Shown here one piece after another: positions 1,748-9,580 of a DNA stretch of 9,580 nucleotides. Under the pieces are notes generated by a model. It did not search any database. It worked only from the letters and a program-made list of their open reading frames with translations, and was not told the origin of the DNA. Positions within the stretch are counted from its first letter, which is position 1, and each line of letters opens with the position of its first letter. The position numbers and the translations under genes were made by a program. The DNA lies in the NCBI GenBank assembly GCA_003141795.1, contig PLNO01000193.1, positions 4,318 through 13,897 on the forward strand, in the 5' to 3' direction. This DNA is from Spirochaetaceae bacterium. Its GTDB lineage: Bacteria; Spirochaetota; Spirochaetia; SZUA-6; Fen-1364.

Positions 1748-1764
1748 TTCACATCTTCTTCACA
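1748..1764 (+). promoter_or_regulatory. TTCACA-N5-TTCACA direct repeat, candidate response-regulator operator
   Basis: Two identical hexamers, TTCACA at 1748-1753 and again at 1759-1764, lie exactly 11 bases apart, on one face of the helix. OmpR/PhoB-family regulators bind as head-to-tail dimers to direct repeats of 10-11 base period, often in place of a good -35 box. The second repeat ends nine bases before a TATTCT -10-like box (1774-1779). This matches the geometry of activator sites such as the PhoP box. The response regulator encoded in this operon is the obvious candidate to bind here; that is inference. Confidence 0.55.
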
Positions 1765-1773
1765 CTCGCAACG

Positions 1774-1779
1774 TATTCT
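1774..1779 (+). promoter_or_regulatory. Candidate -10 box of the copper operon promoter
   Basis: TATTCT matches TATAAT at four of six positions and lies 31 bases upstream of the GTG start. No good -35 hexamer is present at 17 bases; the TTCACA at 1748-1753 is 20 bases away and the one at 1759-1764 is nine bases away. This poor core promoter suits an activated promoter whose -35 function is replaced by the bound regulator. Transcription would start around 1785-1788, giving a leader of roughly 25 bases that contains the ribosome binding site AGGAGG (1801-1806). Confidence 0.45.
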
Positions 1780-1810
1780 CTGGAGCGTACCCACCGAAGC
1801 AGGAGGAACC

Positions 1811-3763
1811 GTGTCCAGAAGAATCGTGCCCCTACGGCTCATTGTCGATGGAATGTCCTGCAACCACTGCGAAAAGACCATCGAATCGGCGGTTGGCAGC
1901 CTCGACGGCGTCACGAAGGTCACCGCGAGCGCCCCGCTTTCCGAGGTCATGGTGTACCACGACCCCGAGCGCGTCGGACGGGAGGGTATCGCCGCGGCGA
2001 TAACGGCCGCGGGGTACAGCGTGCGTGAAGACACGGCGGCCGCGCAGGCAACTGCTCAGACCGTAGCGCCGGGGCACCACCCTGCAGGAGCGGCCGACGC
2101 GGAGACGGCCCGGAAAACCGATGCGGCTCGACCGACGGCCGTCTATCGTTTCCTGGGCTTCCTCGCAATCGTTGCCGCGGCATACCTCATCATCCGCTTC
2201 TCCGGCGGTGCCACGTTCCTCCCTCAGGTGACGAGCTCCATGGGCTACGGCCTGCTGTTCGTCGTGGGGCTTCTCACCTCGCTCCATTGCATTGCCATGT
2301 GTGGCGGCATCGTCCTTTCGCAGGGGATCTCCCGTGAGGCAGGCGATGCTGCGCCCGCGGCCTGCCCCCCGCGGCCCGGCCTCAAGAGCCGTCTCCTCCC
2401 GAGCCTTCTCTACAATGGAGGACAGGTGGGGATGATGACGCTGATCGGCGGAGTGGTGGGAGCGCTCGGCTCCCTGTTCAGCCTCTCCTCGGCCTTGAAG
2501 GGCGTCATGCCCGTCATCGCCGGAGCGTTCATGCTGTTCCTCGGCGTGCGGATGCTGGGGATCTTCCCCTGGCTCTCGCGCCTGAAGGTCCGCCTCCCCG
2601 GCATCAGCGGTGGGAAGGTCGCACGGGCGGCCGCGGGCCGCGGGCCGTTCGTCGTCGGTCTCCTCAACGGGCTCATGCCGTGCGGCCCTCTGCAGACCAT
2701 GCAGGTCTACGCGCTGGGCACGGGGAGCTTCTTCGCGGGAGCGATTTCCATGTTCGTTTTCAGCGCGGGCACCGTTCCTCTCCTGCTCGGCTTCGGGGCG
2801 ATCAGCTCGCTCCTCAGCGCGAAGTTCAACCGCCGCATGCTGAAAGCGAGCGGCGCCCTCGTCATGGTGCTCGGCATCGTCATGTTCGCGCGCGGCATGA
2901 ACCTCTTCGGCGTCGGACTGCCCTCCCTGGTTCCGCCCCGGGCTGCATCCTCCTCCGCGGCGGTGGCGACTGTGGCCGGCGGCGTTCAGACCGTCCGCAT
3001 CACGATCGGCGCCAACGAGTATCGGCCCTTCGTCGTGCAGGCCGGCGTCCCGGTCCGCTGGACCATCAACGTCGCGGCCGCGGATCTCAACGGCTGCAAC
3101 GGGACGGTCACTATTCCCCAGTACGGGATCCGCAAGGTGCTCGTCCCCGGTGACAACCTCGTGGAGTTCACCCCGACGCAGCCGGGGAGCATCACGTATA
3201 CGTGCTGGATGGGGATGATCAGGAGCACGATCAGCGTCGTGCCCGACGTCACGAGGATCGCCAAGGGCGATCTCGCGGCTCCGCCGGGTCCGTCATACAC
3301 GACCCCCGGCGGGCAACAGGGTCAGGCGGGCGGGTGCTGCGGGGTGACCCCACCCAGGTTCGCAGGCGGTGCGATCCCCACGGACACGATCCAGGTCGCA
3401 CGTATGCAGGACGGCTCGCAGGTGGCCGACATCACCGTCGACGACCAGGGCTACTCGCCCGCAGTCATCGTCATGAAGCGTGGTGTGAAGGGGAGGATCC
3501 GCTTCACGCCGGGCAGGCTCAGCGCATGCAATGGCGTTGTGAGCTTCCCGGAGTACCAGGGCTCGCTTGATTTGAGCAAGGGCCAGCTCGAAACGCCGCT
3601 TCTGGACGTCACGGCCGACTTCAGCTTCCAGTGCGGGATGGGGATGCTTCACGGCTACGTGAAGGTCGTCGACGATACGACAAAGGTCGACCTCGCGGCC
3701 GTCAGGAAGTCGGTGGCGGCGTTCCGCCCCCCCGCGGGGTCCGGCGGATGTTGTGGGAAGTGA
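1811..3763 (+). CDS. HMA - TauE/SafE (DsbD-like) membrane protein - double cupredoxin fusion, probable copper transport/relay protein
   Basis: The 650-residue product starts at GTG 1811, set by AGGAGG four bases upstream. Residues 5-72 form a heavy-metal-associated domain with the Cu(I) site GMSCNHC (C17, C20), followed by an Ala-rich linker. The membrane part has about seven helices (near 113-130, 143-168, 197-222, 229-251, 279-300, 303-334, 346-367). It shows two hallmarks of the TauE/SafE DsbD-like (PF13386-type) family: SLHCIAMCGG (C160, C164) and GLLNGLMPCGP (C291). Seven helices would place the HMA domain in the cytoplasm and the tail outside. The tail holds two cupredoxin-like domains (about 394-477 and 536-620), each with GCNG/ACNG and C-x-M-G-M (C429, C465, M467, M469; C573, C608, M610, M612), and each followed by a linker with GGCCG (C509-C510, C647-C648). 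Members are often named sulfite exporters, but the attached metal domains and the neighbouring copZ and two-component genes point to copper. Cu(I) efflux or delivery to an extracytoplasmic acceptor is inferred. Confidence 0.88.
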   Translation: MSRRIVPLRLIVDGMSCNHCEKTIESAVGSLDGVTKVTASAPLSEVMVYHDPERVGREGIAAAITAAGYSVREDTAAAQATAQTVAPGHHPAGAADAETARKTDAARPTAVYRFLGFLAIVAAAYLIIRFSGGATFLPQVTSSMGYGLLFVVGLLTSLHCIAMCGGIVLSQGISREAGDAAPAACPPRPGLKSRLLPSLLYNGGQVGMMTLIGGVVGALGSLFSLSSALKGVMPVIAGAFMLFLGVRMLGIFPWLSRLKVRLPGISGGKVARAAAGRGPFVVGLLNGLMPCGPLQTMQVYALGTGSFFAGAISMFVFSAGTVPLLLGFGAISSLLSAKFNRRMLKASGALVMVLGIVMFARGMNLFGVGLPSLVPPRAASSSAAVATVAGGVQTVRITIGANEYRPFVVQAGVPVRWTINVAAADLNGCNGTVTIPQYGIRKVLVPGDNLVEFTPTQPGSITYTCWMGMIRSTISVVPDVTRIAKGDLAAPPGPSYTTPGGQQGQAGGCCGVTPPRFAGGAIPTDTIQVARMQDGSQVADITVDDQGYSPAVIVMKRGVKGRIRFTPGRLSACNGVVSFPEYQGSLDLSKGQLETPLLDVTADFSFQCGMGMLHGYVKVVDDTTKVDLAAVRKSVAAFRPPAGSGGCCGK

Positions 3764-3767
3764 TCCG

Positions 3768-3796
3768 TGGACAGCCACTTCAATCGTGACCATATT
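3768..3796 (+). promoter_or_regulatory. Possible internal promoter for copZ and the two-component genes
   Basis: In the 53-base gap after the fusion gene, TGGACA (3768-3773; five of six to TTGACA) is separated by exactly 17 bases from CATATT (3791-3796; four of six to TATAAT). If used, it would give the chaperone, regulator and kinase a basal level independent of the upstream activated promoter. Both boxes are imperfect, and the stretch also contains a short GTGG-ACAG-CCAC inverted repeat of unclear meaning. Confidence 0.35.
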
Positions 3797-3816
3797 TGAT
3801 GCAGAAGGAGCACATC

Positions 3817-4029
3817 ATGGCGAATCAAACCCTCGTTCTTGACGTTGAAGGGATGTCCTGCCAGCACTGCGTGCACGCGGTGAAAGGCTCGGTATCGGCG
3901 GTCGCCGGTGTCGAGGCGGTCGACGTCAGCCTGGAGAAGAACCAGGTCACCGTCGGCTTCGATCCCGGTCTTGCCACCCCCGTTGCCATCAAGGCGGCCA
4001 TCGAAGAGCAGGGATACACGGTCAAATAG
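3817..4029 (+). CDS. copZ: CopZ-like copper chaperone (single HMA domain)
   Basis: A 70-residue protein consisting of one HMA (ferredoxin-like beta-alpha-beta-beta-alpha-beta) domain. The metal site is GMSCQHC (M13, C15, C18), the Cu(I)-binding MxCxxC signature of CopZ and Atx1. The usual C-terminal GY of CopZ proteins, which packs near the metal site, is present as EEQGYTVK (residues 63-70). ATG 3817 is chosen because AAGGAG (3805-3810) lies six bases upstream; the TTG at 3796 and the ATG at 3799 are in frame but sit before that binding site. It is a soluble cytoplasmic metallochaperone that probably exchanges Cu(I) with the HMA domain of the preceding fusion protein. The two HMA domains differ outside the motif, so this is not a recent duplication. 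One base separates its stop from the response regulator start. A role with another soft metal cannot be excluded. Confidence 0.9.
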   Translation: MANQTLVLDVEGMSCQHCVHAVKGSVSAVAGVEAVDVSLEKNQVTVGFDPGLATPVAIKAAIEEQGYTVK

Positions 4030-4030
4030 G

Positions 4031-4741
4031 ATGGACCGACCGGAGCAGCGGGTGCTCGTCGTGGACGACGAGCCGAAGATCGCCGAGGTCGTCGGCTCGT
4101 ACCTCCAGAGGGCAGGTTACGTCCCGGTGTCGGCGGCAAGCGGCAGCGAGGCGCTGGCGCTGTTCGAGACGCACCACCCCTGCCTCGTGATCCTCGATCT
4201 CATGCTTCCCGACCTCCCGGGGGAGGAGGTGTGCAGACGTCTGCGCGCCCGCTCCCGGGTGCCCATCATCATGCTGACGGCCAAGGTCGAGGATCACGAT
4301 GCGATCCGCGGGCTGGCGCTGGGCGCCGACGATTACGTGACGAAGCCCTTCAGCCCGCGGCAGCTCATTGCGCGGGTGGAGGCGGTCCTGCGCAGGGCTG
4401 CCTCCGCGGGCGCCCCGCTTGCACGGTCTCTTTCGTTCTGCAGGGACGACCTCTTTATCGACGTGGAAAACAAGGAGGTGCGCAAGCAGGGGGAGCCGGT
4501 CCTCCTCACCCCCAGCGAGCTGCAGATGCTGCTCGTTCTTGCCGCGCATCCCGGCAGGGTCTTCTCCCGCGAGGAGCTCATCTCCCGCGCCCTCGGTGAG
4601 GACTTCGACGGCTTCGACAGGACCGTGGACGCGCACGTGAAGAACCTCCGGCAGAAGATCGAGACAGACCCCCATGTACCCTGCTACATCGTGACGGTGC
4701 ACGGCCTGGGCTACCGGTTCAACGAGGGGGGATCCGCGTGA
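4031..4741 (+). CDS. OmpR/PhoB-family response regulator, probably copper-responsive
   Basis: A 236-residue protein with an N-terminal receiver (about residues 6-120) and a C-terminal OmpR-type winged helix (about 133-232). Receiver residues are complete: acidic pair D12-D13, phospho-acceptor D56 in VILDLMLPD, T83 in MLTAK, and K105 in TKPFSPRQ. The DNA-binding part shows LLTPSELQMLLVLAAHPGRV (158-177), the recognition-helix stretch RTVDAHVKNLRQKIE (197-211) and the terminal wing VTVHGLGYRF. The ATG at 4031 lies one base after the copZ stop and has little Shine-Dalgarno sequence, so translation is probably coupled to copZ; a longer frame reading back into copZ is not used. The gene overlaps the sensor kinase by four bases (GTGA), so the two form a cognate pair. 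By context it should activate the operon it belongs to, most likely through the TTCACA direct repeat near 1748-1764. Its copper dependence is inferred, not visible in the protein. Confidence 0.93.
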   Translation: MDRPEQRVLVVDDEPKIAEVVGSYLQRAGYVPVSAASGSEALALFETHHPCLVILDLMLPDLPGEEVCRRLRARSRVPIIMLTAKVEDHDAIRGLALGADDYVTKPFSPRQLIARVEAVLRRAASAGAPLARSLSFCRDDLFIDVENKEVRKQGEPVLLTPSELQMLLVLAAHPGRVFSREELISRALGEDFDGFDRTVDAHVKNLRQKIETDPHVPCYIVTVHGLGYRFNEGGSA

Positions 4742-6201
4742 GCCTGAGGTTGCGCCTCACCCTGTCCTACGCTCTTGTCGCACTCCTCTGCGTTCTCATG
4801 GTGGGCGCCCTGGCCAACGGCGTGCTCGAATCGACCTTCCGCGGATACGTTCGCGAGAGTCAGGAGAGGAACGCGCGGCAGGTCGTCACGCAGGTGAGCG
4901 CTCAGGCAGGCCGCTCGGGGACCTGGGACGTCGATGCCGTCTCCGTGGTCGGGATGAACGCGCTGGAGCAGGGCATGATCGTTCGTCTATCCGATGCGAA
5001 CGGCACCGTCGTGTGGGACGCCGCGGTGCACAACAATGGCCTCTGCGCGCAGATGCTCGCCCATATGGCGCAGAACATGACACGCCGCTACCCGCAGTGG
5101 CACGGGGCGTACACCGAGAAGTCCTACGAGGTTCGGTCCGGCTTCCAGAATGTGGGGACGGTCACCATCGGCTACTACGGCCCGTTCTTCCTCAACGACG
5201 AGGAGCTTGCCTTCCTCACGACGCTCAACCGCCTGCTCCTGTGGATCACCCTGGCGGCACTGGCGCTCGCCGTGGGCGTCGGCACGTTCATGGCGCGGCG
5301 CGTCACCGTTCCCCTCGCGCGAATTTCGGCCGCCACGCGGCGTATCTCCCAGGGGGAGCGCGACGTCAGCATCCCCGTGACGACGCGCACGGTCGAACTG
5401 GACAGCATCGCATCGGCGGTGAACAACCTGTCCCGCGGTCTTGCGGAGCAGGAGGCGCTGCGTCGCAGGCTCACCGCCGACATGGCGCACGAGCTGCGTA
5501 CGCCGCTTGCCACGCTGCAGAGCCACCTCGAGGCGATGATCGACGGCATCTGGGCGCCGGACCACGGCAGGCTCGCCGGGCTGCACGAGGAGATTCTCCG
5601 CATCTCACGGATGGTGTCGGATCTGGAGAACCTCGCGCGGTTCGAGGGGAGCGCGGCGAACCTCCAGAAGCAGAGGGTGGGCCTTGCGGCGCTCGTGGCG
5701 CGGATCGTGGGCAATCACGAGCCGCAGTTCGCGGAGAAGGGAGTCGCGCTGCGCGTGGACGTCGAACGCACGGCCCTGCCACACGCCATGCCCGGAACGC
5801 CCTGGGCCGACGTCGATCCCGACAGGATGAGCCAGGCCGTGATCAACCTCCTGTCAAATTCTCTGAAGTTCACCCCCGCCGGCGGCAGGGTCAGCGTCGG
5901 GGCGTTCGTCGAGGGCGCCAACGCGGTGATTACGGTGACGGATACGGGTGTCGGCATCGGCGCGGAAGATCTGCCACGGATCTTCGAGCGCTTCTACAGG
6001 GCGGATTCTTCGCGAAGCAGGGCGACGGGCGGTTCGGGGATCGGCCTCTCCATCGTGCGGGCCATCGTCGAGGCGCACGGCGGGACCGTTGCCGCGCGCA
6101 GCACCCCGGGTGAAGGCTCCGAGTTCCGCATTGTGCTCCCCGCGGCCGGAGATGCTTCTCAGGAGCCCGAGCGCTCGGCTGCTATCCTCCTGAAACGCTG
6201 A
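4738..6201 (+). CDS. Two-component sensor histidine kinase, candidate extracytoplasmic copper sensor
   Basis: A 487-residue membrane kinase starting at GTG 4738, with GAGGGG seven to eight bases upstream and a four-base overlap with the regulator gene. Layout: first helix about 8-29; external sensor loop about 31-158; second helix about 162-185; HAMP domain about 185-238; HisKA with phosphorylated H251 in ADMAHELRTPLATL; and a complete ATP-binding domain with N box NLLSNSLKFTP (370-380, N374), G1 DTGVGIG (402-408), F box RIFERFYRAD (414-423) and G2 GGSGIGLSIV (431-440). The sensor loop holds a short region dense in soft-metal ligands (C103, M106, H109, M110, M114, H122), just after WDAAVHNNG. 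Metal detection outside the cytoplasm fits the copper genes beside it, but the signal is inferred. The last 43 bases overlap the amidotransferase gene on the opposite strand, where the protein has only a low-complexity tail. Confidence 0.92.
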   Translation: MSLRLRLTLSYALVALLCVLMVGALANGVLESTFRGYVRESQERNARQVVTQVSAQAGRSGTWDVDAVSVVGMNALEQGMIVRLSDANGTVVWDAAVHNNGLCAQMLAHMAQNMTRRYPQWHGAYTEKSYEVRSGFQNVGTVTIGYYGPFFLNDEELAFLTTLNRLLLWITLAALALAVGVGTFMARRVTVPLARISAATRRISQGERDVSIPVTTRTVELDSIASAVNNLSRGLAEQEALRRRLTADMAHELRTPLATLQSHLEAMIDGIWAPDHGRLAGLHEEILRISRMVSDLENLARFEGSAANLQKQRVGLAALVARIVGNHEPQFAEKGVALRVDVERTALPHAMPGTPWADVDPDRMSQAVINLLSNSLKFTPAGGRVSVGAFVEGANAVITVTDTGVGIGAEDLPRIFERFYRADSSRSRATGGSGIGLSIVRAIVEAHGGTVAARSTPGEGSEFRIVLPAAGDASQEPERSAAILLKR

Positions 6202-6975: not shown

Positions 6976-7395
6976 TCATATCTGGTAGTTGAGGGTCTGG
7001 TTTTTTCCCGAGAGAACGAGGTTCTCCAGGGTGACATCTTCGAGGGCGCGGGCGATTGTCTTTTCAAGAAGCACCCAGACCTCGTCAGTGGGGTGCTGTT
7101 CGCCTGAGCCCTTGCGCGGATGCGTGGCGGGTGCCACGTCACCCTCCAGCACCTGGACGATCTCCCGGACGGTGATGGTGCGCGGAGATCGGGCAAGAGT
7201 GTACCCGCCATGGGCGCCACGGTACGAGGTGATGAGGCTGACCCCCCGCAGGGGGATCACCAGCTTGCTCAGGTACTTTTCCGAGATCTTGTGCTTGCGC
7301 GCGATCTCCTTGAGGAACACCGGCTCCCCGCCGTACTTCAGAGCGAGCTCGTACATGACCTTCAAGCCGTAGCGGCTGCGTGTGGATATTCGCAT
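6976..7395 (-). CDS. Rrf2-family transcriptional regulator, CymR-like, without iron-sulfur cysteines
   Basis: A 139-residue Rrf2 protein. The N-terminus MRISTRSRYGLKVMYELA, the winged-helix segment with ISEKYLSKLVIPLR (37-50) and the wing YRGAHGGYTLARSP (58-71) are typical of the family. The segment after ITVREIVQVLEG (74-85), where IscR and NsrR carry three cluster-binding cysteines, has none; the protein has no cysteine at all. In this it resembles CymR, the cysteine-metabolism repressor of Bacillus and Staphylococcus, which senses cysteine supply by complexing with the PLP enzyme CysK. The gene lies 94 bases after a cystathionine gamma-lyase/synthase gene and a CBS-type gene on the same strand, which supports a sulfur amino acid role. 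The start is ATG (complement of 7393-7395) with AGGA about four bases upstream; a longer frame has no supporting signal. A well-spaced promoter and an inverted repeat lie directly upstream, suggesting autoregulation. Confidence 0.9.
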   Translation of the reverse strand: MRISTRSRYGLKVMYELALKYGGEPVFLKEIARKHKISEKYLSKLVIPLRGVSLITSYRGAHGGYTLARSPRTITVREIVQVLEGDVAPATHPRKGSGEQHPTDEVWVLLEKTIARALEDVTLENLVLSGKNQTLNYQI

Positions 7396-7402
7396 TCGTC
7401 CT

Positions 7403-7426
7403 GTTCTCTCGGGAAGAGGATAGAAC
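7403..7426 (-). promoter_or_regulatory. Inverted repeat over the -10 box of the Rrf2 gene, candidate autoregulatory operator
   Basis: On the minus strand GTTCTATC (complement of 7419-7426) and GAGAGAAC (complement of 7403-7410) form eight-base arms with one mismatch around an eight-base centre. The repeat covers the -10 box (7417-7422) and the expected transcription start, where a bound dimer would block polymerase. Rrf2 regulators commonly bind dyads of about this size and repress their own genes. Whether this protein binds here is inference. Confidence 0.45.
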
Positions 7427-7445
7427 GGGACGGGACGCACGTCAA
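7417..7445 (-). promoter_or_regulatory. Sigma-70-type promoter of the Rrf2 gene
   Basis: TTGACG (complement of 7440-7445; five of six) and TATCCT (complement of 7417-7422; four of six) are separated by exactly 17 bases on the minus strand. Transcription would begin near 7410, about 15 bases before the ATG at 7395. It is the best-formed core promoter in the window. It means the regulator, and perhaps the amidotransferase behind it, can be transcribed apart from the transsulfuration genes. Confidence 0.6.
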
Positions 7446-7490
7446 TAAAGCGTCCGCAGGGCGGCCACCCATCCCGCGGGCGTGGCGGAC
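7446..7490 (-). terminator. Possible terminator after the cystathionine gamma-lyase/synthase gene
   Basis: Read on the minus strand, GTCCGC (complement of 7485-7490) begins at the last base-triplet of the gene and pairs with GCGGAC (complement of 7452-7457). An alternative inner stem (GCCAC with GTGGC) is also possible. The hairpin is followed by GCTTTATT, a short T-rich tail. It would separate the transsulfuration genes from the Rrf2 promoter that begins a few bases later. The loop is long and the T-run weak, so termination may be partial. Confidence 0.35.
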
Positions 7491-8626
7491 TACCCCAGGG
7501 CCTGTGCGAGGTCCTCCGTGAGGTCGTGAACGTCCTCGATCCCCACGGACAGGCGGACAAGGGCATCCGTGATGCCGATCCGTTCCCGGTCCGCGGCAGG
7601 GATTGCCGCATGGGTCATCGTCGCGGGGTGACACACGAGTGATTCCACGCCGCCGAGACTCTCCGCCAGGGTGAACACCCCGAGCTTCCGCACGAAGCGG
7701 TCCAGAGCGGGTCTGCCCCCCTCCAGCGTAAAAGACACCATGCCCGGAAAGCCCCGCATCTGCCTGCGGGCGATCAGATTACCGGGGTGGGTGTCGGACC
7801 CCGGGAAATACACGTGGCCCACGGACGGATGACCGGACAAGAGGGCGGCTACTGCAAATGCGTTGGACTGATGCCGCTCCATGCGGAGTGCCAGCGTCTT
7901 CAGACCTCTCTGGACGAGAAAGCTGTCCAGAGGCGACGGCACCGCGCCTGCCGCGTTCTGGTAGAACTTGCAGCTCTGGAAGAGGTCCTGGCGGTTGGTG
8001 ACGAGCGCGCCTCCGATCACGTCGCTGTGGCCGCTGATGTACTTGGTCGTGCTGTGCACGACGATGTCGGCGCCGAGGTCCAGCGGGGTCTGGAACCAGG
8101 GGCTGGCAAAGGTGTTGTCGACGACGAGGAGCGCTTCCGCGGGCTTTATCTGCGCGATCCCCGCGATGTCGATGATGTTGAGGAGCGGGTTCGTCGGGGT
8201 CTCCACCCAGATCAGCCGCGTCTTTGCCGTGATGCCCTTGCTGAAATCCTCCACCCCGTGGGCGTCGAGGAACCTGCCCGTGATCCCGTACTTCGCGTAG
8301 ACCTTGTTCAGCAGCCTCCACGTCCCTCCGTAGACGTCCACCGTGGAGAGCACCTCGTCGCCGGGCTCGAGGAGGTTCAATACGGCAGCCGTTGCAGCGG
8401 ATCCCGAGGCGAAGCACAGCCCGTAGGCCCCGTTCTCCGCGGAGGCGATGGTGCCCTCCAGCGACACGCGGCTGGGGTTGCCCGTGCGGCCGTACTCCCA
8501 GCCTCCCCGGGGCTTTTCCACGCCGTCCTGCTCGAAGGTGGAGGTCATTGTGATGGGGACTGTCACCGAACCGGTGACGGGATCGGGATCCTGGAACTCG
8601 TGGATATACCGGGTGGCCGGCCTCAT
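7490..8626 (-). CDS. Cystathionine gamma-lyase / gamma-synthase family PLP enzyme (probably gamma-lyase)
   Basis: A 378-residue, full-length member of the Cys/Met-metabolism PLP family. Visible signatures are YGRTGNPSR (45-53, contacting the PLP phosphate of the neighbouring subunit), ASGSAATAA (73-81), the ring-nitrogen aspartate in VVDNTFASP (D170), the PLP lysine in HSTTKYISGHSD (K195), and ESLGGVESLVCHPATMTHA (322-340). In gamma-lyase it would cleave cystathionine to cysteine, 2-oxobutanoate and ammonia; gamma-synthase and methionine gamma-lyase share these motifs. Gamma-lyase is favoured because the gene is coupled (ATGA overlap) to a cystathionine beta-synthase-type gene, the arrangement of the reverse transsulfuration pair mccA-mccB of Bacillus. 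The start is ATG (complement of 8624-8626) with a strong GAGGAG site about six bases upstream, inside the preceding gene. Cytoplasmic tetramer in the family. A CymR-like regulator follows. Confidence 0.9.
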   Translation of the reverse strand: MRPATRYIHEFQDPDPVTGSVTVPITMTSTFEQDGVEKPRGGWEYGRTGNPSRVSLEGTIASAENGAYGLCFASGSAATAAVLNLLEPGDEVLSTVDVYGGTWRLLNKVYAKYGITGRFLDAHGVEDFSKGITAKTRLIWVETPTNPLLNIIDIAGIAQIKPAEALLVVDNTFASPWFQTPLDLGADIVVHSTTKYISGHSDVIGGALVTNRQDLFQSCKFYQNAAGAVPSPLDSFLVQRGLKTLALRMERHQSNAFAVAALLSGHPSVGHVYFPGSDTHPGNLIARRQMRGFPGMVSFTLEGGRPALDRFVRKLGVFTLAESLGGVESLVCHPATMTHAAIPAADRERIGITDALVRLSVGIEDVHDLTEDLAQALG

Positions 8627-9580
8627 GCGCTCCTCCTCGTGTAGTAGTCGATCAGGTCGATCCGTGTGATGACCGAGCTTGGCACCCCTTCGTTCACGAG
8701 CACCAGGGCGCCCGCCCCGCCCAGGAGGAGCCGGTAGGCTTCGGCAACGTCGGCCGCGAGGTCCAGCGTCGGGAAGGGCTTGCCCATGACCGCGCCCACC
8801 CTCTGGTTGCGGGGGTCCACGCCGTCGAACACCAGGGCGAGGAGCGTGGATTCCTGGAGGCTTCCCACCGAGGTGTGTCCGTCAAGGACGGGAAGCTGGG
8901 AGATGTTGAACCTGTGGAAGAGATCGATCGCCTTCTGCAGCGTGTCATCAGGGGAGACAAAGATGATCTCCGAAAGCTGGCGCTTCTCCCCCAGCACGGC
9001 GCGCACGGCCGCCTTGTCCTGCACCGACGGCTCCCAATAGCCGTTCTCCTGCATCCACCTGTCGGAGAATATCTTCGTGAGGTAGTTGCGCCCGGTGTCG
9101 GGGAGGAGCACGACGATCGTCCTGGGCTCGGTGAGCCTCTGCGCGTACTTCAGCGCCGCCGTCATAGCGGTTCCCGCGGAGCCCCCCACGAGCAGCCCTT
9201 CCTCCCGCGCCAGACGCCGCGCCATGTTGAAGGAATCGCGGTCGCTCACGCGGATCATCTCGTCGACCATCTGGCGGTCGAAGGTTTTGGGAATGAAATC
9301 CTCCCCGATGCCTTCCACCTTGTAGGGGCGGGGAATGTCGCCGGAGAGGATGGAGCCCTCGGGGTCGGCGCCCACGACTACCAGCCGCGGGTTCCTTTCC
9401 TTCAGGTAGCGGGCCGTGCCGGAGATCGTGCCCCCCGTGCCCATGCCGGCGACGAATACGTCGACCTTCCCTCCGGCGTCTTCCCATATCTCGGGGCCCG
9501 TGCTCGTGGTATGGGAGAGGGGGTTGTTCGGGTTGACGAACTGGTTGGGCCGGTAGGCTCCGGGGATCTCCCGCGCGAGC
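8623..9580 (-). CDS. Cystathionine beta-synthase type PLP enzyme with C-terminal CBS pair (5' end outside the window)
   Basis: The frame runs off the right edge; 318 C-terminal residues are visible, numbered from codon 9577-9579. An internal ATG at 9444 is not the start, because upstream sequence (for example NQFVNPNNP and TGPEIW) is plainly family sequence. The PLP-phosphate loop GTGGTISG (47-54) and the SAGT motif (134-137, serine near the PLP ring) belong to the CysK/CBS fold-type II family; the catalytic lysine lies outside the window. Residues about 204-253 and 259-314 form two CBS domains, a Bateman module that in cystathionine beta-synthases can bind S-adenosylmethionine or nucleotides and tune activity. 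CysK itself lacks these domains, so condensation of homocysteine and serine to cystathionine is favoured over O-acetylserine sulfhydrylation, although some CBS-domain enzymes do both. The stop overlaps the start of the next gene by four bases, so the pair is translationally coupled. Confidence 0.9.
   Translation of the reverse strand, partial: LAREIPGAYRPNQFVNPNNPLSHTTSTGPEIWEDAGGKVDVFVAGMGTGGTISGTARYLKERNPRLVVVGADPEGSILSGDIPRPYKVEGIGEDFIPKTFDRQMVDEMIRVSDRDSFNMARRLAREEGLLVGGSAGTAMTAALKYAQRLTEPRTIVVLLPDTGRNYLTKIFSDRWMQENGYWEPSVQDKAAVRAVLGEKRQLSEIIFVSPDDTLQKAIDLFHRFNISQLPVLDGHTSVGSLQESTLLALVFDGVDPRNQRVGAVMGKPFPTLDLAADVAEAYRLLLGGAGALVLVNEGVPSSVITRIDLIDYYTRRSA

Follow-up and report, generated by a model that had tools for sequence, protein, structure and literature searches.

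The question raised by this locus is what is done by a single membrane protein that carries domains of copper-binding type at both ends of a DsbD-like core. The gene for this fusion (1811..3763, + strand) heads a four-gene operon in a 9,580-nt stretch of contig PLNO01000193.1 (positions 4,318 to 13,897) from a Spirochaetaceae bacterium, hereafter the window. A role in copper handling is very probable for both operon and fusion. The set is best read as a copper-responsive envelope operon whose fusion protein would relay Cu(I) across the membrane beside the ATPase CopA, a reading to which we give a probability of about one half; we infer copper binding, an outward flow, and passage of copper instead of electrons. 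The sensor kinase would detect external Cu(I) by means of a Cys/Met/His cluster, and the response regulator, judging from operon anatomy and conservation, would bind a TTCAYA-N5-TTCAYA repeat and activate the operon. Cytoplasmic Cu(I) would be collected by CopZ, and CopZ would dock on the fusion at its HMA domain. The ion would then travel a conserved His/Cys/Met path through the core and reach two external cupredoxins of CupA type, where it may be held for export or hand-over. The fusion would act beside a CopA encoded elsewhere, not in its place.

The domain composition of the fusion supports the copper assignment. The gene has a GTG start behind a ribosome-binding site (AGGAGG, 1801..1806) and encodes 650 amino acids (aa): an HMA domain with the motif GMSCNHC (residues 10-69, 1838..2017), a membrane core with invariant HC..MCGG and PCGPLQ motifs (residues 109-365, 2135..2905), a first cupredoxin (residues 386-477, 2966..3241) and a second (residues 530-620, 3398..3670). 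Pfam matches were HMA at 10-69, PF13386 (DsbD_2) at 149-357 with 152 bits (cut-off 24.9) and Cupredoxin_1 at 389-472; the second cupredoxin received no Pfam call, yet matched CupA with an E value of 3.9e-9. The first-pass annotation had described an HMA-TauE/SafE-double cupredoxin fusion. The HMA domain and both cupredoxins stand, whereas the core belongs to DsbD_2, and PF01925 (TauE) was not among the Pfam matches of the fusion. A cupredoxin fold matching PDB 4f2e was found in the protein, and the CupA ligands C74, C111, M113 and M115 align to C429, C465, M467 and M469 in the first cupredoxin and to C573, C608, M610 and M612 in the second.

Relatives were collected by a scan limited to a single genome per species, from whose 408 hits the best 80 loci were used, and by a protein search, which gave at least 5190 relatives among 7998 scored candidates. 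In a 79-row alignment (the window, 49 of 77 locus fusion open reading frames (ORFs) and 29 of 120 listed database proteins), restricted for the locus ORFs to those of 560-720 aa and leaving out shorter fusion forms, the ligands were 100 % conserved in the first cupredoxin and 89-91 % in the second. Two or more CxMxM motifs were present in 42 of the 77 ORFs and one in 35; judged by these motifs, one-cupredoxin and two-cupredoxin forms both exist. Each cupredoxin of the window is also followed by a CC pair, C509/C510 (3335-3340) and C647/C648 (3749-3754), conserved in the 79 rows at 89/88 % and 74/84 %, as if the whole unit might have been duplicated.

Gene neighbourhoods point in the same direction. 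They were counted in 51 of the 80 loci, with at least 5 kb before and at least 6 kb after the fusion; the loci are related and the counts are not independent. Within 8 kb, copA was present in 35 loci, this type of kinase in 27, this type of regulator in 24, the regulator-kinase pair likewise in 24, an FtrD-like gene in 24, copZ in 14 and csoR in 8, making copA the commonest of the neighbours looked for. Either copA or the regulator-kinase pair was found in 39 loci, and both in 17. The copper function proposed in the first-pass annotation is upheld by the CupA ligands, by their conservation in relatives and by this linkage.

The position of copA bears on what the fusion does. In 25 of the 51 loci, a copA match on the strand of the fusion begins no more than 700 bases downstream of it. 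This arrangement suits a protein that serves as an external copper acceptor or chaperone dependent on CopA, its core being an anchor through which nothing crosses. However, the invariant core positions are too many for a mere anchor and the window has no copA, and such a role appears improbable. A copper importer, or a loader of an external or membrane cuproenzyme, would fit a distant TauE-only protein of Halorubrum, whose gene has SCO and NosL genes beside it. The pattern of detoxification, however, is the linkage to CopA, CopZ and CsoR seen here, and we consider import or loading very unlikely.

In Deinococcus, Chlorohelix and Mycolicibacterium, members of three other phyla, a separate HMA gene directly follows a TauE-cupredoxin gene. 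That HMA, core and cupredoxin form a single protein in one lineage and lie side by side in others is a good indication of a joint function. The three split TauE-cupredoxins retain C160, C291 and M314 of the core as well as the cupredoxin ligands. Such loci of three other phyla, L192, L195 and L196, show a second type of core, with SCxAVQGG replacing HCxxMCGG, in proteins with one cupredoxin that adjoin the separate HMA gene.

In the relay reading, the two ends of the protein lie on opposite sides of the membrane. Model helices were placed at 109-130, 146-172, 191-222, 227-249, 278-304, 307-332 and 337-365, six of which exceeded the threshold in a hydrophobicity profile of the 79 rows. The fifth, 278-304, has a break at residues 287-291, which takes in the PC motif and the residues ahead of it. 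Mean Lys plus Arg per sequence was 2.3 (100-114), 1.8 (173-190), 6.3 (250-277) and 3.4 (333-345) on one side, and 0.16 (131-144), 0.01 (223-226), 0.0 (305-306) and 0.47 (366-385) on the other. Because the model helices and the Lys/Arg bias fit together, and the pattern misfits without the broken helix, seven helices are predicted, with the N-terminus and HMA domain inside and the C-terminus and cupredoxins outside. Within a 74-row alignment (the window, 49 locus ORFs and 24 database proteins), the invariant positions of the core were H159, C160, M163, C164, M241, M248, P290-C291-G292-P-L-Q and M314; C429, C465, M467 and M469 of the first cupredoxin were likewise invariant.

The same core could carry electrons. 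Its transmembrane helices TM1 and TM4 hold one Cys each (C160 and C291), both invariant and both kept in 13 of 13 other proteins compared, including the three split TauE-cupredoxins and two TauE-only proteins, and TM4 is the helix that the structure model breaks at the PC motif. Pfam describes PF13386 as a cytochrome c biogenesis transmembrane region, and several relatives carry PF02683 as well. In an electron relay, the core would send reducing equivalents outwards and keep the external cupredoxin cysteines reduced, for Cu(II) reduction or for holding Cu(I); the fusion would then be a self-resetting CupA, CopA would move the copper, and the HMA domain would dock or sense it. According to the available part of PMC5646241, C74 and C111 of CupA reduce Cu(II), and what re-reduces CupA is there left unidentified. 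The FtrD-like gene (PF10080, DUF2318; an iron-sulfur membrane protein in Pfam), which accompanies the fusion in 24 of 51 loci (for example, L004:6940-7488) and lies no more than 600 bases upstream of it in 16 loci, hints at redox chemistry. None occurs in the window. We take PF13386 and PF02683 to be members of the DsbD/CcdA superfamily. DsbD itself has a thioredoxin-like domain in the same protein; the Pfam scan of the fusion found none. A redox path is favoured by the Cys pair of the DsbD-type core and the frequent FtrD-like neighbour. A metal path is favoured by the HMA domain and by the Met residues that are invariant in the core, which an electron relay fits less well. On balance, we regard the electron relay as somewhat unlikely.

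Genome-wide occurrence was then considered for the fusion, the kinase and the ATPase. Of 148 genomes around G071, 19 have the fusion (E 1e-60), 20 have the kinase (E 1e-75) and 16 have both (Fisher P=3.9e-15, uncorrected for kinship). All 14 genomes with a kinase at E 1e-105 or better also had the fusion, with the two genes on the same strand and within about 4 kb in 11. The fusion occurred without the kinase in G113, G147 and G193, and the kinase without the fusion in G077, G082, G102 and G210. Fusion and kinase do recur together across these genomes; copZ was nearby in a smaller share of loci, as counted above (14 of 51).

No copper ATPase is encoded within the window, and the first-pass annotation had taken this as a sign of a possibly ATP-independent route. 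That step is not supported. In 16 genomes with the regulator-kinase pair, no copA was seen at the fusion locus, although nine of these loci end at contig ends and copA could still be nearby. The copper-ATPase model was matched at E 1e-80 or better in all 16 and above its cut-off in 14; the two below it were G001, where the match is in pieces, one at a contig end with two HMA domains, and G072, a 1.6-Mb assembly. One of the 16, G071, has a copA that follows the fusion at a distance of about 10 kb and shares its strand. A CPC motif and two HMA domains were directly seen in the ATPases of G002, G003 and G004, the last lying outside the 16. The genome from which the window comes presumably has a copA too. 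The description of the operon as self-contained is doubtful, because copA is the commonest neighbour and an ATPase above cut-off is found in 14 of the 16 genomes. At L190:5223-8002, away from the fusion locus, a copper-type ATPase gene is directly followed by a stretch matching the cupredoxin of the fusion.

The operon lies wholly on the + strand. The fusion gene is followed by copZ (ATG start, 3817..4029), with its own ribosome-binding site (AAGGAG, 3805..3810), by an OmpR-family response regulator (4031..4741) and by a sensor kinase (GTG start, 4738..6201); the gaps are 53, 1 and -4 bases, and the regulator-kinase overlap reads GTGA. The copZ product, scanned from 3796 upstream of the ATG, scored 71.9 bits against TIGR00003 (cut-off 62) and 86.1 against the CopZ_Bs model, just below the cut-off of 91, and is classed as a CopZ-type Cu(I) chaperone. 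The order fusion-copZ-regulator-kinase is repeated in the close relatives L002 and L035, and L002 shares the FemAB and amidotransferase flanks too. Four genes in one direction behind a promoter with a regulator-type direct repeat, a fusion with its HMA domain inside and its cupredoxins outside, and two-component control had all been proposed in the first-pass annotation; gene order, gaps and repeat were found as described, the predicted topology agrees and is conserved in relatives, and the regulator-kinase pair is conserved with the fusion and has an external Cys/Met/His cluster in the kinase.

The repeat, TTCACA-N5-TTCACA (1748..1764), is perfect and lies at the -35 position as a probable response-regulator site; it is the sole match in the window at two or fewer mismatches, with 0.19 expected from shuffling. 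A -10-like box, TATTCT (1774..1779), follows it by 9 bases. Both the repeat and this spacing are conserved upstream of many relatives. In 1.19 Mb of the 80 loci, there were 38 exact occurrences of TTCAYA-N5-TTCAYA, where ten resamplings gave 1.7 on average. In 19 of the 78 loci with upstream sequence, it stood no more than 250 bases ahead of the fusion, against a mean of 0.475 for random windows. At a fixed 9 bases after the operator, a TANNNT box was present at 27 sites in 26 loci within 900 bases upstream (T in 24, A in 26 and the last T in 26 of the 27 sites). The full pattern of operator and box had 37 matches in 17 of 20 genomes, compared with three for the reversed pattern, part of the 37 being loci from which the pattern was derived. 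G071 has the operator before another cluster as well, one that ends in copA and copZ; there the first long ORF starts 466 bases past the operator and two other genes come before copA. The same genome has eight operator-promoter matches in about 225 kb (L176-L180, 840-1065 kb), before the copA-copZ cluster, another regulator-kinase pair and small genes that are repeated; this may be a metal island that is mobile or has been amplified. In G062, G063 and G003, where copA is away from the fusion, a weak CsoR match (44-47 bits) lies close to copA and no operator was found near it in the stretch examined. For this reason, sensing may be divided, with the kinase responding outside and CsoR inside.

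The external sensor domain of the kinase spans approximately residues 31-164 and is followed by HAMP, HisKA and HATPase domains. It contains H98, C103, M106, H109, M110 and M114 (5029..5079, + strand), a candidate Cu(I) site on the strength of conservation. When the window kinase was aligned with 32 others that lie beside fusions, selected at more than 300 bits to it, C103 was kept in all 33 sequences, M114 in 30, H98 in 29, M110 in 28, M106 in 25 and H109 in 23. A model helix, 100-117, holds C103 to M114. In a wider comparison of 16 rows including the window and leaving out L203, L204, L210, L211 and L217, a Cys of the C103 type was present in 11 (the window, eight beside a fusion and two unlinked in fusion genomes); the five rows lacking it were lower-scoring, several of them Met-rich, and came from three genomes without the fusion and two with it. 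We infer that the cluster would bind copper. Searches with the sensor gave generic sensor matches only, with a WalK model first and CusS at rank 25. Related kinases in L213, L215 and L216, one from a genome without the fusion, have Met-rich (MMxxMM) sensors without Cys and are perhaps sensors of other metals.

Several observations weigh against a Cu(I) relay. The side on which the cupredoxins lie depends on the broken helix 278-304, which fails the hydrophobicity threshold, and the core had no match among the PDB structures listed, which matched other domains. C160 and C291, one Cys per half-repeat, are equally suited to a DsbD/CcdA-type electron relay. H159, M163 and C164 are missing from the three split TauE-cupredoxins, while the TauE-only proteins of Halorubrum and Rhizobium, which have neither HMA domain nor cupredoxin, possess H159, C160, M163, C164 and C291; the HC..MC motif is therefore a trait of the core family at large and not of copper fusions alone. 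CopA adjoins the fusion in many relatives, so a second exporter seems redundant. Three of the 51 loci have none of the six marker genes. As for the operator, six of 35 regulator-bearing loci (L012, L025, L056, L057, L062 and L076) show at least five mismatches to it within 260 bases upstream of the fusion, which speaks against its general conservation. A bolder formulation accommodates both cargoes: the DsbD-fold core would be a new transporter that moves Cu(I), or electrons that keep copper as Cu(I), without ATP, from the HMA domain inside to the CupA-type cupredoxins outside, switched on by a kinase sensing external Cu(I) while CsoR runs CopA. This we put forward tentatively, as possible rather than probable.

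Among the matches listed, relatives already bear the database name sulfite exporter TauE/SafE/plastocyanin domain-containing protein/copper chaperone CopZ. Sulfite export draws on such names and on genes of Cys/Met metabolism nearby on the other strand; with no PF01925 match and neighbourhoods dominated by copper genes, it has hardly any credibility. Sulfur genes were seldom seen beside the homologues: CGL and CBS matches above 100 bits occurred near only four and three of the 51 relatives, and the sulfur reading was dropped. In the window, the region 6979-9580 (- strand), outside the copper operon, encodes a Rrf2/CymR-like regulator and cystathionine gamma-type and beta-type enzymes; the same kinds of gene also lie near the fusion and copA in L035 and L185.

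The locus can be compared with several known systems. Streptococcus pneumoniae CupA and the CopA N-domain (PDB 4f2e/2mry and 4f2f) share the cupredoxin fold and four Cu(I) ligands, which the fusion has twice. Unlike the CupA domain, which the available part of PMC5646241 suggests to be cytoplasmic, the two cupredoxins are predicted outside and belong to one protein with an HMA domain and a membrane core. The PF13386 core, in which two membrane helices hold a single Cys each, is shared with DsbD/CcdA and the DsbD_2 proteins of COG2836; in contrast to DsbD/CcdA, the fusion has no thioredoxin domain and bears copper domains at both ends of its core. In gut Firmicutes, an analysis of eight operons led to the inference that COG2836 genes combining HMA, DsbD_2 and DUF2318 are part of the copper regulon of CsoR (PMC4938975, in the part available); these genes resemble this locus in placing HMA and DsbD_2 under inferred copper control; that set has DUF2318 and CsoR, whereas the window has two cupredoxins and a two-component pair. 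A Chloroflexi metagenome-assembled genome has a cluster of CopZ, DsbD_2-cupredoxin, copper ATPase and CsoR, known by annotation only in the accessible part of PMC8756737, with the same kinds of parts but separate HMA genes and an ATPase. CusRS and CopRS likewise pair an OmpR-type regulator with a membrane kinase bearing an external sensor, but the window pair scored below the NCBIfam cut-offs (213.3 against 292.55 bits for TIGR01386 and 144.9 against 279.2 for TIGR01387).

No functional study of such fusions was recognised in the open-access literature searched, and nothing relevant to TauE, SafE or DsbD was found in PMC8267372 or PMC12617631. The first-pass annotation had called the set uncharacterised. 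This holds for its function, which has apparently never been tested, whereas the gene layout is already in databases and a CsoR regulon had been inferred for related genes in the Firmicutes study, as far as the available text goes. Thousands of related proteins are known, and where databases give them a name it is often that of a sulfite exporter. Should they prove to be copper relays, they would form a major, so far untested part of copper homeostasis in Clostridia, Spirochaetes and their kin, and metal would be a second cargo of a membrane fold known as an electron carrier.

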